The translations under genes were made by a program, and so were the position numbers. The notes below the pieces were generated by a model. That model was not told the DNA's origin. It ran no database searches and was given only the letters and a program-made list of their open reading frames with translations. A stretch of DNA of 59,958 nucleotides. It comes from Acidobacteriota bacterium. GTDB taxonomy: Bacteria; Acidobacteriota; Terriglobia; 2-12-FULL-54-10. Below are positions 36,923-43,876 of the stretch, piece after piece. The first letter of the stretch is position 1. The number at the start of each line of letters is the position of its first letter. The stretch is from assembly GCA_009691245.1 (NCBI GenBank), contig SHUM01000016.1, positions 1 to 59,958 on the forward strand, given 5' to 3'.

Positions 36923-37480
36923 CTAACTCGAGGAGAGTGAATAGCTTCCGAGAGGAATGGGAGCGATGTCCACCCAATGGTCGGGGGTGTCCTGACCGAC
37001 CAGCACTAGCGAATCCACGCGGAAGCGAATCGGCTGGGGCAGCTCAGTCCAGGCCAGCGAAACTTCCTTGAGTGCATCTTGAGTGGCGACCTCGTCAAGG
37101 GCCTGAACGACGGTCACATGAGGAACGTAGGCATACGGCTCCGCGGAGTACATTCCGTTATGGTTCAACAGACTATGCAGCTCAGCAAGCTGCGTCAGCC
37201 CTTCGGCGACTCTCAGGTAGACCACCCCGTTCACAGGCCAGAAGGTGGATACTCCATCAAGGGAAACTTCGAATGGAGCGATCTGGCGGCATCGCTCGCG
37301 TAGATGGGCCAGCCGGTTATCGCGGTCGCCGACCGTCCATGACAATAAGCGCGGCGGCAGGACGCTTACGTGAGCTAGCCAGTCCCCATAGATCGGATTC
37401 AAACGTCGGCGCAAGCCGCTCACAAAATCCGCGATGGGTCCGGTGAGATACGAAACGACAGCGTAGGTGGAATCGAGCAT
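36923..37480 (-). CDS. 2'-5' RNA ligase-like 2H phosphoesterase
   Basis: A 185-residue cytoplasmic protein with the two histidine motifs of the 2H superfamily: H37 in HVSVL and H121 in HVTVV, in a duplicated alpha/beta fold. Members hydrolyse 2',3'-cyclic phosphate or 2'-5' linkages in RNA or small nucleotides. The motif form HV[ST]V with a final Phe/Val is close to the LigT/YjcG branch. No RNA repair genes are near it. The substrate is unknown. Confidence 0.75.
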   Translation of the reverse strand: MLDSTYAVVSYLTGPIADFVSGLRRRLNPIYGDWLAHVSVLPPRLLSWTVGDRDNRLAHLRERCRQIAPFEVSLDGVSTFWPVNGVVYLRVAEGLTQLAELHSLLNHNGMYSAEPYAYVPHVTVVQALDEVATQDALKEVSLAWTELPQPIRFRVDSLVLVGQDTPDHWVDIAPIPLGSYSLSSS

Positions 37481-37853
37481 ACTGCTTCCAGACTATCCAA
37501 TTCATTCGCAAAGGTTCAAGTCCCAAATAAGGAGAAGACAGAAGTCAGCACATTTGCGGAAGCTAATGTCTCTAGTTCTGTATTCTGCCTCCTGAATTCT
37601 GCCTTCTTTCTCCTTCAGCCCATAAATGATACTTATGATGTTAGAATATTTATGAACTTTACAAATAGCTGTTTCTGTCGTCTAATGTACGATGCCCTTG
37701 GGCGTGGCAGCGGATTATCAGGCTGTCCGGGCATATGTGGAGATCAGGAACTGGCGGTTTGCCGGCATTCACCTGGCATGCGTTTCGTGGGCAATTTCCC
37801 GCGCTGGTCTCCCGCCCATCAAGCCATTTTAGGATCAGGAGAGGAACGATTTC
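37481..37853. other. Leader region upstream of ilvC with a palindromic repeat
   Basis: About 370 bases. At 37531-37614 there is an imperfect inverted repeat built from GACAGAAGTCAG-type words and their complements, related to 40857-40958. The next 240 bases are a possible ilvC leader containing short G/C hairpins. I do not see a leader peptide with runs of branched-chain codons, nor a T-box, so attenuation is not supported. Confidence 0.4.
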
Positions 37854-38855
37854 ATGGAGATCTTTTACGAACAGAACGCCAAGCCGGAACTGCTGAAGGG
37901 CAAGACCATTGCCATGATCGGCTACGGCAGCCAGGGCCACGCCCAGGCGCAAAACCTCCGCGACAGCGGATTCACTGTTGTGATTGGACTCGACCCCGGC
38001 CGCGGCTCGGCCCAGCAGGCCACCGCCGACGGCTTCAAAGTTCTGCCCGTCCCCGCAGCCGTGCGCGAGGCCGACTTCGTGCAGATTCTGGTGCCAGATG
38101 AGCATCACCGGAAACTGTTCGAGACAGAAATCCAGCCCAACCTGAAGCCCAACGCCATTCTCTCCGTCTCCCACGGCTTCTCCATCCACTTCAAGCAGAT
38201 TGTTCCCCCGTCCACCATCGACGTGGTGATGATCGCGCCCAAGGGGCCGGGCCATTTGGTGCGCCGCGTCTACACGCAGGGCGGCGGCGTGCCCGCGCTG
38301 ATCGCCGTGTCGCAAGACGCCTCCGGCAAGGCGCAGGATTACGCATTGGCATACGCCTATGGCATCGGCGCCACACGCGCCGGTGTCGTGAAGACCACCT
38401 TCCGTGACGAGACCGAGACGGATCTATTCGGTGAGCAGGCTGTGCTCTGCGGCGGACTTACCTCGCTGATGAAGGCCGGCTACGAGACACTGATCGAGGC
38501 CGGCTATCCGCCGGAGATGGCCTACTTCGAGTGCATCCATGAAGTGAAGCTGATCGTGGACCTGATCTATGAAGGCGGCTTGGCGCGCATGCGCTATTCG
38601 ATCAGCAATACCGCCGAGTACGGCGACCTCACCCGCGGCCCGCGCGTGCTGGGGCCGGAAGTGAAAGAGCGCATGAAGAAGATTCTCAGCGAGATTCAGT
38701 CCGGCCAGTTCGCCAAGGAATTCATCGACGAGAATGAAAAAGGCAAGCCGAACTTTGATCGCCTGCGCGAGGCCGAGAAGCATCACCCGGTGGAGGCTAT
38801 CGGCGCGGAGCTGCGCGAGATGATGTCCTGGCTCAAGCAGCCCAAGAAGAGCTAA
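37854..38855 (+). CDS. ilvC: Ketol-acid reductoisomerase
   Basis: A 333-residue class I enzyme that converts acetolactate or acetohydroxybutyrate to the dihydroxy acid in branched-chain amino acid synthesis. The NAD(P) fold begins [35 protein letters not shown] and [17 protein letters not shown] are the metal-site motifs, and the C-terminal domain contains [26 protein letters not shown] lies upstream of the start. Here ilvC precedes ilvB and ilvN, unlike the common ilvBNC order. Confidence 0.95.
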
Positions 38856-38879
38856 GGCGCAACTGCGAAACCCGTATTG

Positions 38880-39058
38880 AGCCACCGTCAGGGCACGGTT
38901 TCAACCGTGCCGTCACGACGGCTCAATACCAGCGGTTTTTACCGCTGGGGCACGGTGAACGGACCACACCATGCGCTCGACATGGCTGGGAACCTCAGGG
39001 GTTAAAACCCCTGACATTTGGGGCGACTAACCGGCGCGGTTGAAACCGTGCCCTGACG
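38880..39058. repeat. Chain of nested palindromes between ilvC and ilvB
   Basis: Four linked palindromes: GGCACGGTTTCAACCGTGCC at about 38893-38912, CCAGCGGTTTTTACCGCTGG at about 38929-38948, TCAGGGGTTAAAACCCCTGA around 39000, and a final GGCGCGGTTGAAACCGTGCC. The first and last are flanked by CGTCAGGGC/GCCCTGACG, so they also pair with each other across the region. This is a strong multi-stem RNA within a probable operon. Confidence 0.75.
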
Positions 39059-39161
39059 CAAAATTGAAGTTGTCGCACAGACTCTGCAGTCGTGCCCTGA
39101 CGGTGCTCCGAAACGCTTTGCAACAGAGTCTAAGGCGTACCAGAAAAATAAAGGAGACAGA

Positions 39162-40856
39162 ATGTCCATCACTGGCGCTGAGATTTTGCTGGAAGCGTTG
39201 AAGCGGGAAGGCGTGGAGGTCATCTTCGGCTATCCCGGCGGGGCCAACATCCCCATCTACGATGCGCTCTACAACAGCCCCATCAAGCATGTTCTGGTGC
39301 GCCACGAGCAGGGAGCGGCGTTTGCCGCCGAAGGATACGCGCGCGCCAGCGGACGCGTAGGCGTGGCGCTGGCCACCTCCGGCCCCGGCGCGACGAATCT
39401 GGTAACCGGCATCGCCGATGCCAAGATGGATGGCATCCCTCTGGTCTGCCTGACCGGACAAGTGCGCCAGAACGTGATCGGCACTGACGCGTTTCAGGAG
39501 ACCGACGTGGTCGGACTCACGCTGCCGGTAACCAAGTGGAACGCCATGATCACCTCCACACGCGACATTCCCACGCTCATCGCGCAGGCGTTCTACGTAG
39601 CCCGCAGCGGACGCCCCGGCCCTGTGCTGATCGACATCCCAGTCAACTTTGTCCGCGAGAAGATTGACGACCCCGCTTCCATTCACTATCCCGATTCCGT
39701 TTCCGTCCCCGGTTACACGCCAGATAAACCGACTGCACGTCCCATCGCCAAGCTGATTGAGATGTTGCAGCACGCAAAGCGGCCCGTGGTCATGGTGGGC
39801 GGCGGAGTGAAGTGGGCCGGCGCGGTGAAGCAGGTACGCGACCTGCTCGACACTTTGAAGATTCCGGTGATCTCCACCGTCCACGGACTCGGCACCGTTT
39901 CCGAGGACCGCGACTACTACCTCGGCATGGTCGGGATGCACGGCACGCGGCAGTCCAACATGGCCGTGAGCCACTCGGACCTGCTCATCGTCTTCGGCGC
40001 GCGTCTCGATGACCGCGTTACCGGCGACGCGGCCAGCTTCGCGCGCCACGCCAAGATCGCGCACTTCGAGATCGACACGGCGCAGTTGAGCCGCGTGCGC
40101 CCCTGCGATCTGCCCGTGGTGGGTGACCTGAAGTTCACCGCCGATGAGTTCCACGAGTCGCTGCCAGCCAATCTTCCTGACTGGTCTGAGTGGCGCAAGG
40201 AAACCACGGCCACGCCAAACCCGGCGGAGAAGGTTCACGTCGGCACGGGAAAGCCTTCGCCGACCAAAATATTGGAGATGCTGTTCGACATGATGGACCC
40301 TGACGCGCTGATGACCACCGACGTCGGCCAGCACCAGATGTGGGCCGCGCAGCGCGCCAGCGGCATCGCCAACCCGCGCCAACACATTACTTCGGGCGGC
40401 CTCGGTGCGATGGGCTTCTCGCTGCCCGCCGCGATTGGCGCGCAGATGGCCTACCCACATCGCCAGGTCATCTCCGTCTCCGGCGATGGCGGCTTCCAGA
40501 TGAACATTCAGGAGCTGGCCACCATCCAGCGCTACTCGCTGCCGATTAAAGTCGTCATCATCGACAACAAATATCTGGGCATGGTGCGCCAGTGGCAGCA
40601 ACTGTTCTGGGATCGCCGCTACTCGGAAGTCGATCTCTACGACAACCCGGACTTCATCAAGATATCTGAAGCCTACGGCATCCCCGGCGTCCTGATGAGC
40701 AAGGCCGAGAGCATGGAAGCACAGCTCAAGGAATTCCTGGCCATGCCCGGCTCCGCCACGCTGGTGGTCGAGTGCCCGGCGGAAGCGAACGTTTACCCGA
40801 TGGTGCCCGCAGGCGCGGCGCTGACCGACATGGTATGGGAAGAGAAAAAGAAGTAG
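39162..40856 (+). CDS. ilvB: Acetolactate synthase, large (catalytic) subunit
   Basis: A 564-residue thiamine-diphosphate enzyme for the first common step of branched-chain amino acid synthesis. The cofactor-activating Glu is in VRHEQGAAFAAEGYARASG. The FAD region includes MVGMHGTRQSNMAVSHSDLL. The ThDP motif is VSGDGGFQMNIQELATIQRY, then IIDNKYLGMVRQWQ. AAAGGAGA is upstream of the ATG. Length and motifs are normal for an AHAS that needs a small subunit. Confidence 0.95.
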   Translation: MSITGAEILLEALKREGVEVIFGYPGGANIPIYDALYNSPIKHVLVRHEQGAAFAAEGYARASGRVGVALATSGPGATNLVTGIADAKMDGIPLVCLTGQVRQNVIGTDAFQETDVVGLTLPVTKWNAMITSTRDIPTLIAQAFYVARSGRPGPVLIDIPVNFVREKIDDPASIHYPDSVSVPGYTPDKPTARPIAKLIEMLQHAKRPVVMVGGGVKWAGAVKQVRDLLDTLKIPVISTVHGLGTVSEDRDYYLGMVGMHGTRQSNMAVSHSDLLIVFGARLDDRVTGDAASFARHAKIAHFEIDTAQLSRVRPCDLPVVGDLKFTADEFHESLPANLPDWSEWRKETTATPNPAEKVHVGTGKPSPTKILEMLFDMMDPDALMTTDVGQHQMWAAQRASGIANPRQHITSGGLGAMGFSLPAAIGAQMAYPHRQVISVSGDGGFQMNIQELATIQRYSLPIKVVIIDNKYLGMVRQWQQLFWDRRYSEVDLYDNPDFIKISEAYGIPGVLMSKAESMEAQLKEFLAMPGSATLVVECPAEANVYPMVPAGAALTDMVWEEKKK

Positions 40857-40958
40857 ACAGAAGTTAGGAGTCAGGAGCTAGAAGTTAAGAGTTGGAAGGT
40901 CCGGAATATTCTGGCTCCTAACTCCTTCTCTTCTAACTTCTGTCTTCTAACTTCCACT
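40857..40958. repeat. Inverted repeat in the ilvB-ilvN spacer
   Basis: AGACAGAAGTTAGGAGTCAG and GCTAGAAGTTAAG are mirrored by CTCCTTCTCTTCTAACTTCT and GTCTTCTAACTTCC. The arms are about 40 bp around a short loop. Related words occur at 37531-37614 and 57781-57812. It may tune ilvN expression relative to ilvB. Confidence 0.7.
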
Positions 40959-40974
40959 TTTTAAGGAGTTGAAA

Positions 40975-41259
40975 ATGACCGCAACCGCAGCACCGGCACT
41001 GACCGGCCTGACCGTGGACTTCCACAACATTCCCGGCGCGATGATGCGCGTGCTGAACTCCTTCACGCGCCGCGGCCTGGTCATTCAGGCCGTGCAGTGC
41101 GGCCCGGCGGGCGATCACCACCGCGCGCACGTCGTCGTCGAGGCTCTGCCCATCACCATGGAGCAGACTATCAGAGAACTCGAGAGCACCGTCGGCGTGG
41201 ACTCCGTCGCGCCCATCGAGACCGCGCAGATCACCAAACTTCTCAACGCCACCCGCTAA
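40975..41259 (+). CDS. ilvN: Acetolactate synthase small subunit, short ACT-only form
   Basis: A 94-residue regulatory subunit with a single ACT domain (LTVDFHNIPGAMMRVLNSFT; GLVIQAVQCGPA). It binds valine-like effectors and stimulates the large subunit. A good AAGGAG lies 6 bases before the ATG at 40975. It is shorter than the usual 160-residue IlvH, lacking the C-terminal domain, and so resembles the small IlvN/IlvM type. Confidence 0.88.
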   Translation: MTATAAPALTGLTVDFHNIPGAMMRVLNSFTRRGLVIQAVQCGPAGDHHRAHVVVEALPITMEQTIRELESTVGVDSVAPIETAQITKLLNATR

Positions 41260-41663
41260 TCTCACTCCTGAAATACCGCGGCATTCCATCGCACGTTTAA
41301 CAATTGCGTCGGGCGTAACCGAGATGTGTCCGCGCTAATCAATTTGCGTTGCGCGCCGATGAACTTCAGTGAGACGGCACGCGCGCACGCCGGCACTCAC
41401 CGTGGACCAATTCCCCCCAATTGGCTTTGTCGGCATTTTGACGAAACCCCTGTCAATAGACATTATATTGACGATTTTGTGCTTGCCTCAAACACCGATT
41501 TGCCCCTAATCAACTGAATCCAATAGACCCCGCTGTTTGGCCTTCCCCTTGCCTTTAGTAGGCCGTGCGCTGGCGAAAAGACAACGCCGGACATGAGCAA
41601 GACATGAGCAAGCGAAAAAATCCACGCCGGTGAATCCGGCAAAGTGCGACGCAGGGGGAGATC
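41260..41663. other. Intergenic region before the sigma-TPR gene
   Basis: About 400 bases. It holds the inverted repeat CCAATTCCCCCCAATTGG near 41407-41424 and the TTGAC/GTCAA array at 41438-41472. A short tandem of GACATGAGCAA occurs near 41590-41612. There is no convincing gene. Confidence 0.4.
41438..41472 (+). promoter_or_regulatory. Promoter with alternating TTGAC/GTCAA half-sites
   Basis: TTGACG (41438-41443) and CATTAT (41461-41466) with a 17-base spacer form a sigma-70-type promoter. TTGAC (41438-41442), GTCAA (41452-41456) and TTGAC (41468-41472) alternate in orientation. They make one dyad over the -35/spacer (TTGACGAAACCCCTGTCAA) and a second over the -10 (GTCAATA/TATTGAC). This arrangement suits a repressor or autoregulator. 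The promoter is about 190 bases before the sigma-TPR gene. Confidence 0.5.
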
Positions 41664-43391
41664 ATGACGGTAGCGGAACCAGCAGTTTCCTGGATGATGC
41701 GGCAGGACGAAATTCCGGTGGACATCCAGAGCGCGAGCTTCATGGAGAATCTGGTAAACGAAGCAAAGGATAGTGTGCGTTATCTCGCCAAACGGTTGGC
41801 CTCGCGCCTGCCTGCGCATGTGGACGTGGAAGACCTCTACCAGATGGGCATGATCGGCCTGCTGCAATCCGTCGATCGTTTCGACGACTCGCGCGGCATC
41901 AAGTTCCAGACCTACGCCAACCGCCGCGTGCAGGGCGCCATGCTGGACTATCTGCGTTCGCTCGACTGGCGCCCGCGCTCGGTGCGCCGCCGCAATCGCG
42001 AGATCGCTGTGGCCGTCTCCACCGTCGAGCAACGCCTGGGCGGCTCGGCCAGCACCGAAGAGATCACCGCGCAGATGGACATCAGCATGGACGAGTATCA
42101 CCAGTGGATGAGCGAAGGCTCCATCCCGCGCGCCGGCGAGTTCATCCACGCCGACGCACACTCCAGCAGCAGCGTGGATGACTTCATGAACACCATCGCC
42201 GACACCGCCGCCACGCCGGAACAGGCCGTGCTCAGTATTGACGTGAGCAGGAACTTCGGCGGCGATCTGGCTGCGGCGGTCCTTCGGGACATTCCTCCAC
42301 ACAAGATCAGGTCTTCACAGAAGAACGGGCCATCGCCAACGATAGGGACGAAATTGGGTCTGATGCTTTGGGGGATCGATACTCTCCTCTACCAAGATAA
42401 GCGAGACTCTATATCGGGCCCACGCCAGCGCCCTCCGTTTGCTGCCCAATTGAACTTTGATCGGGAACGACTGGCGGAACTGCTTCCCTATCCGGTGGTG
42501 TTCTGGGTAGCCGATGAAACTTATGCGCTGCTCTTGAAGCAGGCTCCTGATCTGATCCGCTGGGTGTCGGCGAGTTTCGTATTTGATGCGCCAACGCCTG
42601 CCCGGGAATTGCTCGGACCAGTCGTTTCGAGCTTCGACGCCGGTGGCGAGGCGACGAAGGAAGCGAAGCCCGGGCCGGATCGCAGTACAGCGCTGCTCCT
42701 GGAAGAGTTGAAAATAACTCCGGCATCGGGTGGGCCGGAATCTGCCGCAAAGCGCCTCTCCCTGCTCACCGCAATTGTCGAGCGTCTGTTGGACGCGGCG
42801 AATTTCCGCCAAGGCAAGTTGTTTGCTCAAGAAGGTCTCGAACTATCCAGGCTGCTCAACAACCGCCGCGGTGAAGGCAACGCCCTCGGCAACCTCGGCA
42901 TCGCCTACGCAGCCCTCGGCGAGACCCGCCGCGCCATCGACTTCTACGAGCAACGCTTGGTGATCGCGCGCGAGATCGGCGACCGCCTCGGTGAAGGCAA
43001 CGCCCTGGGCAACCTGGGCATCGCGTACGCCGGCCTGGGGGAGACACGCCGCGCCATCGAGTACCACGAGAAGGCGCTGGTCATTGATAGCGAGATCGGC
43101 GACCGGCGAGGCGAAGGCAACGGCCTGGGCAACCTGGGCATCGCCTACGCCGACCTGGGGGAGACACGCCGCGCCATCGACTTCTTCGAGCAACGCCTAG
43201 TCATCGCGCGCGAGATCGGCGACCGCCGCGGTGAAGGCAACGCGCTTGGGAACATGAGCCTGGCGCTGGACAAGCTTGGTGAGCGCAAGCAGGCCATCGA
43301 ACGTGCCGAAGCTGCGCTGAAAATATTCGAGCAGACCGAAGACCCGAACGCCGCCAAGGTGAGCGACGTGTTGGAGCAATGGAAGAAGTAG
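41664..43391 (+). CDS. Chimeric protein: FliA-like sigma factor regions 2-3 fused to a TPR/NLR-like C-terminus
   Basis: A 575-residue ORF. Residues 28-195 are a FliA/WhiG-type sigma factor: region 2 (RLPAHVDVEDLYQMGMIGLL; FDDSRGIKFQTYANRRVQGA) and region 3 (STEEITAQMDISMDEYHQWM). Region 4, needed to read -35 boxes, is missing. After about residue 195 the sequence changes to a segment (about 230-310) with ERLAELLPYPVVFWVADETY and LKQAPDLIRWVSASFVFD. This matches the part of bacterial NB-ARC/STAND-like TPR proteins just before their repeats, without its P-loop. Residues 400-560 hold four nearly identical 40-residue TPRs (GEGNALGNLGIAYAALGETR). The fusion is in frame with no stop. It could be a real novel regulator, a deletion product or an assembly chimera. 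GGGGGAG precedes the start. Confidence 0.6.
   Translation: MTVAEPAVSWMMRQDEIPVDIQSASFMENLVNEAKDSVRYLAKRLASRLPAHVDVEDLYQMGMIGLLQSVDRFDDSRGIKFQTYANRRVQGAMLDYLRSLDWRPRSVRRRNREIAVAVSTVEQRLGGSASTEEITAQMDISMDEYHQWMSEGSIPRAGEFIHADAHSSSSVDDFMNTIADTAATPEQAVLSIDVSRNFGGDLAAAVLRDIPPHKIRSSQKNGPSPTIGTKLGLMLWGIDTLLYQDKRDSISGPRQRPPFAAQLNFDRERLAELLPYPVVFWVADETYALLLKQAPDLIRWVSASFVFDAPTPARELLGPVVSSFDAGGEATKEAKPGPDRSTALLLEELKITPASGGPESAAKRLSLLTAIVERLLDAANFRQGKLFAQEGLELSRLLNNRRGEGNALGNLGIAYAALGETRRAIDFYEQRLVIAREIGDRLGEGNALGNLGIAYAGLGETRRAIEYHEKALVIDSEIGDRRGEGNGLGNLGIAYADLGETRRAIDFFEQRLVIAREIGDRRGEGNALGNMSLALDKLGERKQAIERAEAALKIFEQTEDPNAAKVSDVLEQWKK
42863..43340 (+). repeat. Four 120-bp direct repeats encoding TPR units
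   Basis: Near-identical 120-bp units (40 codons each) inside the sigma-TPR gene, beginning at about 42863, 42983, 43103 and 43223, each starting CGCCGCGGTGAAGGCAACGC or a close variant. The low divergence suggests recent expansion or gene conversion. The period is fully explained by the TPR protein repeat, so this is not a CRISPR. Confidence 0.8.
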
Positions 43392-43409: not shown

Positions 43410-43610
43410 GCAGCCCCGGAGGGGCGATAGATAGTAGCCCACGGCGCGAGCCGTGGGTGGCGGACACAACGGTAGCGCCAGCCCCGGAAGGGGCGAAAGA
43501 AAACAGCGCAGCCCTCTTTCGCCCCTGCCGGGGCTGCCTGTTCTTCACTTACGTAAACCACGGGCTTACGCCCGGGGCTACTTTCTACCGCCCCTGCCGG
43601 GGCTGAGCAA
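43410..43610. repeat. Cluster of GCCCCGG-GGGGC palindromes
   Basis: Several copies of AGCCCCGGAAGGGGCGAAAG and its complement, plus GTAGCCCACGGCGCGAGCCG-type and CACGGGCTTACGCCCGGGGC units, fill the gap between the sigma-TPR gene and tRNA-Sec. Further copies occur at 47990-48050, 48364-48432 and near 49555. These are strong GC hairpins and may end transcription from the sigma-TPR gene. Confidence 0.7.
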
Positions 43611-43747: not shown

Positions 43748-43767
43748 ATTTTCAACCAATTCCCCAA

Positions 43768-43876
43768 CAGTGCCGCGCGCGTAAGCAAGCGGACCTGCTT
43801 CGCGGGCAAGCGGACCTGCTTCGTGAGCGGCTTGACCGTTGAACGGGTCCGCTTGCATACGCGCGCGGCACTGTTA
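43768..43876. repeat. Divergent copy of the GTGCCGCGCGCG palindromic element
   Basis: Outer arms ACAGTGCCGCGCGCGTAAGC and its near complement ending GCGCGCGGCACTGT. Inside is a tandem of GCAAGCGGACCTGCTTCG and an inverted GGTCCGCTTGC. It has the same ends as the elements at 8332 and 49312 but a different, shorter core. It separates tRNA-Sec from cimA. Confidence 0.7.

Follow-up and report, generated by a model that had tools for sequence, protein, structure and literature searches.

A sigma factor gene fragment fused in frame to a TPR protein gene in an acidobacterial genome: most likely the outcome of a chance deletion, or else of misassembly

Can a bacterial sigma factor exchange its promoter-reading region 4 for a TPR solenoid? 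This question is raised by an open reading frame on the forward strand of an acidobacterial contig, of which we analysed a stretch of 59,958 nucleotides (the window). The frame (41664-43391) begins with ATG, encodes 575 amino acids and contains no internal stop. Pfam assigns its front part to sigma regions 2 and 3 and finds no region 4; a segment with no match lies behind them, and TPRs follow. An initial annotation had seen in it a possible new kind of regulator and had named a deletion that fused two genes and an assembly chimera as alternatives. These two alternatives turn out to be the explanations best supported here: the fusion is most likely the product of a chance deletion (or of an assembly error) and no new kind of regulator.

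The sigma part and the junction

The 5' part of the frame (41664-42236, forward strand) corresponds to codons 1-191 of a FliA/WhiG-type sigma factor gene and thus to regions 2 and 3. It shares 94% amino acid identity with the orthologue (L002/L084) from the same-genus MAG Candidatus Sulfopaludibacter sp. SbA3 (G001; sigma contig CAMBEY010000040.1). Sigma70_r2 is present at residues 30-103 (E 5.4e-17), and Sigma70_r3 at residues 112-187, with 24.9 bits, falls just short of its cut-off (25.3 bits), while the G001 orthologue reaches 27.5 bits. No Sigma70_r4 match was obtained in the frame by Pfam, whereas the G001 orthologue possesses regions 2, 3 and 4 (Sigma70_r4 E 3e-16). The closest NCBIfam model is that of the FliA/WhiG family (TIGR02479); the score of 147.2 bits stays below the cut-off of 189.6 bits because region 4 is missing, and full-length relatives score 231-238 bits. 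The description as a FliA-like sigma factor that has lost region 4 is correct.

The gene order at the locus is ilvC-ilvB-ilvN-sigma, and the window is collinear with G001 from 36925 to 42236, except for an additional segment of approximately 1.6 kb between ilvN and the sigma gene, which is found in G001 (L037:10920-12571) and not in the window. The comparison of the locus is limited by the G001 contig, which stops 860 bp past the sigma stop codon. The DNA of the window and of G001 is alike through GTGCTCAGT and diverges from 42237 onward, where G001 runs on as GTGCTCAGTGAGCAGATG... and the window as GTGCTCAGTATTGACGTG... The homology to G001 breaks, to the base, at 42236/42237 (codon 191/192), close to position 42250, near which an in-frame junction had been proposed. 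GC3 drops across this joint from approximately 0.88 to approximately 0.58 and goes up again in the TPRs. A duplicated junction motif was considered and rejected, since the 20-bp junction string occurs just once in the window. In an AlphaFold2 model of the fusion, most of the sigma and TPR residues outside 6-18 and 153-337 have a confidence of at least 70, and these two stretches are of low confidence; the underlying alignment has no rows for the middle part, about which the model therefore says little.

Two further observations concern the sigma factors of this lineage. The dS of the sigma fragment (41664-42236 against L037) is 0.07 and lies much below that of ilvC, ilvB and ilvN (0.23-0.44), which possibly reflects recombination or synonymous constraint. 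A second FliA/WhiG-like paralogue, whose regions 2 and 4 are separated by a long segment, is encoded on contig C8 of the same genome (L064:1168-2283) and has an orthologue in G001 (L065:736-1698); both are just under the TIGR02479 cut-off. A role as flagellar sigma-28 factor was considered and is unlikely: four control genomes were positive for FlhA, but it was not found in the genome under study (G000), G001, G003 or G005, which makes a non-flagellar sigma factor probable.

The TPR part and its donor module

Behind the junction, the frame continues with the N-terminal domain of a donor TPR protein (42237-42863, forward strand), followed by the TPR array and the C-terminus of this protein with its native stop (42864-43391, forward strand). 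The array begins at about residue 400 and matches TPR_12 with four stretches (E 3e-31), in agreement with the four repeats counted initially; it consists of three 120-bp units, which are 80-88% identical, and a diverged fourth one. Residues 192-400 have no Pfam match, and no P-loop family was detected there. The initial annotation had likened this segment to one that precedes TPR arrays in STAND/NB-ARC-like proteins. This holds insofar as the domain does precede TPR, nSTAND1, NACHT or TIR parts elsewhere, but neither an NB-ARC domain nor a P-loop NTPase was detected in the frame.

The closest donor homologue found, L054 of genome G103, shares 39% identity over query residues 1-208, with the alignment beginning at codon 192 of the fusion. 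The first 69 or so residues of the homologue have no counterpart in the fusion (alignment A3), and the match of the domain profile (A4) in the window sets in only at model position 57 of 243. The joint coincides with no domain boundary of the donor, whose N-terminal domain is cut short. In the homologues that we read, the TPR protein is a separate second gene with a gene for an AAA/KAP/ORC-like ATPase directly upstream. Residues 192-575 of the fusion align to the second protein of this two-gene module (homologues L054, L055, L057 and L058), but the fusion lacks the N-terminal 69 or so residues as well as the AAA partner.

In Acidobacteriota, this module (L054, L055, L056, L057, L058, L059, L074, L076, L078 and L082) is composed of an AAA/KAP/ORC-like ATPase and, behind it, a protein with the shared Pfam-blank N-terminal domain, whose C-terminal part is interchangeable (TPR, nSTAND1 or NACHT; a TIR version of the second protein is present in L083). 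The module resembles a conflict or signalling system, and its parts are matched only weakly by PADLOC.

Donor homologues were found in 6 of 399 genomes of the class by a single-sequence search and in 9 of 396 genomes of the phylum by a profile search, the two sets overlapping and both counts including G000; relatives of the donor were not found in GTDB genome contigs, plasmids, phages and viral contigs. None of the 12 proteins scanned with Pfam carries a sigma domain, the other donor homologues read have their own N-terminus, and no further sigma-TPR fusion was encountered among the homologues examined. Relatives do not share the fused architecture either: the sigma factor is of full length in G001, G003 and G005, the relatives within the family that possess a close orthologue, and in the homologues read the TPR protein is encoded separately beside the AAA ATPase. 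The sigma-TPR architecture is a singleton within the genomes searched. With the fusion seen only here and its halves kept as separate genes in relatives, the proposal of a new kind of regulator finds no support.

Deletion or assembly chimera

We consider it moderately probable that the fusion goes back to one deletion between two co-directional genes, which had once been separate and met in frame by chance. The original order would have been ilvC-ilvB-ilvN, a full-length FliA/WhiG-type sigma gene and then an acquired AAA-ATPase/TPR module of two genes. Region 4 of the sigma gene would have been lost together with the whole AAA gene and some 69 codons at the start of the TPR gene, and the probability that the remaining ends meet in frame would be about 1 in 3. 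We infer this event and the former gene order; a single deletion is the simplest event that explains the sharp joint, the losses (region 4, the sequence that follows the sigma gene in G001, the AAA gene and the 5' end of the TPR gene) and the intact 3' end of the TPR gene with its own stop. It also agrees with the state of the sigma part, which has no stops or frameshifts and shows no amino acid change at residues 59-162 in comparison to G001. What speaks against it is that the supposed intermediate, a sigma gene followed by the AAA-TPR module, was seen in no relative.

Less probable is an erroneous join made during assembly, by which the sigma contig was linked to a TPR gene that lies in another part of the genome or stems from another organism, so that no fused gene would exist in the cell. 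The singleton status of the arrangement is what one would see in such a case, and the same applies to the abrupt shift of codon composition at the joint. The G103 homologue has a similar pattern, with low GC3 in the N-terminal domain and high GC3 in the TPRs, but a weaker one; the low-GC3 middle part alone is therefore no proof of an artefact. Nor has the donor module been seen elsewhere in the family, which also counts against the deletion: searches of the other family genomes did not reveal the AAA-TPR module, and the AAA ATPase profile (A1) matched none of the seven family genomes, while all five positive-control genomes were matched. Moreover, the assembly is fragmented (96 contigs) with 3.25% contamination, and the nearest relative is itself a MAG.

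An incorrect join, however, should have left pieces behind, and these are absent although the genome is rated 100% complete. A search of G000 revealed no second copy of the donor segment, no AAA gene and no 5' end of the TPR gene, and the sequence following the sigma gene in G001 was not found either. For sigma region 4, the matches were limited to distant sigma paralogues, which lie on other contigs (best E 2.5e-10, compared to 3.3e-70 in G001). In addition, the joint is free of gaps and in frame, and the 3' flank of the TPR gene has the character of the genus: behind the TPR stop, GC-rich palindromic repeats (43412-43605, no strand assigned) resemble sequence found at many places in G001, and from 45630 on the window sequence is common to G001:C223. 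Between the TPR stop and cimA, palindromes are located at 43479-43605 and 43766-43875, with 22-nt arms that are 95% complementary and 46-nt arms that are 85% complementary; sequence like theirs is present on many G001 contigs.

Expected function and known sigma factor architectures

In sigma factors, sigma2 provides the main contact to core RNA polymerase and recognizes the -10 element, while sigma4 contacts the flap and the -35 element. The loss of sigma4 should abolish normal promoter use by a FliA/WhiG factor. If the fusion is expressed from the sigma start codon, its product would carry sigma2-sigma3, with the capacity for core binding and -10 contact, would lack sigma4 with its -35 and flap contacts, and would in addition contain part of a globular domain and the TPR solenoid. 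We expect such a protein either to lack activity or to compete weakly for core RNA polymerase.

Neither of two known arrangements, TPR-extended and split sigma factors, matches the architecture of the fusion, so that with sigma4 lost a loss of sigma function is to be expected, perhaps together with weak competition for core. With its own family (TIGR02479) the fusion shares region 2 and a region 3 that scores just under its cut-off, and it is 94% identical over 191 residues to a complete member from the same genus; region 4 is missing. TPR extensions are known from ECF42 sigma factors (PMC8999054, PMC8103513), in which a TPR solenoid likewise follows the sigma domain (PMC8999054). ECF42 proteins, however, have the sigma2-sigma4 make-up of ECF factors and carry their TPRs behind sigma4, whereas the fusion possesses region 3, has no sigma4 and contains a portion of an unrelated domain ahead of the TPRs. 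A split sigma factor is represented by SigO-RsoA of Bacillus subtilis, where a sigma polypeptide also lacks one promoter-recognition domain (PMC8103513); in contrast, the search for region 4 in the own genome revealed no adjacent gene for the missing region near the fusion.

Against this background, it is very unlikely that the fusion is a functional, selected regulator, in which sigma2-sigma3 melts -10 DNA and TPR partners replace region 4, or which acts as a regulated competitor. Such a function would agree with the presence of both halves in one open frame and with the unchanged sigma residues 59-162. Precedents can also be named, since TPR extensions control ECF42 factors (PMC8999054) and sigma domains may be distributed over separate proteins, SigO-RsoA (PMC8103513) being an example. 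The fusion has been seen only once, however, its orthologues retain region 4, and the joint truncates the donor domain. Furthermore, dN/dS of codons 1-191 against G001 is 0.44 (13 nonsynonymous and 9 synonymous changes, giving low power to tell decay from constraint) and exceeds the 0.05-0.18 of ilvC, ilvB and ilvN, although the sigma value is based on few changes and low dS. Even less probable is a recently born chimeric regulator in one acidobacterial lineage, which would use sigma2-sigma3 and a TPR solenoid in place of region 4, either together with a partner or in competition with the housekeeping sigma factor.

As it stands, the locus represents a one-off fusion that annotation pipelines could take for a new sigma factor architecture. 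Should the fused protein prove able to direct transcription, this would mean that region 4 of a sigma factor is replaceable by an interaction solenoid.
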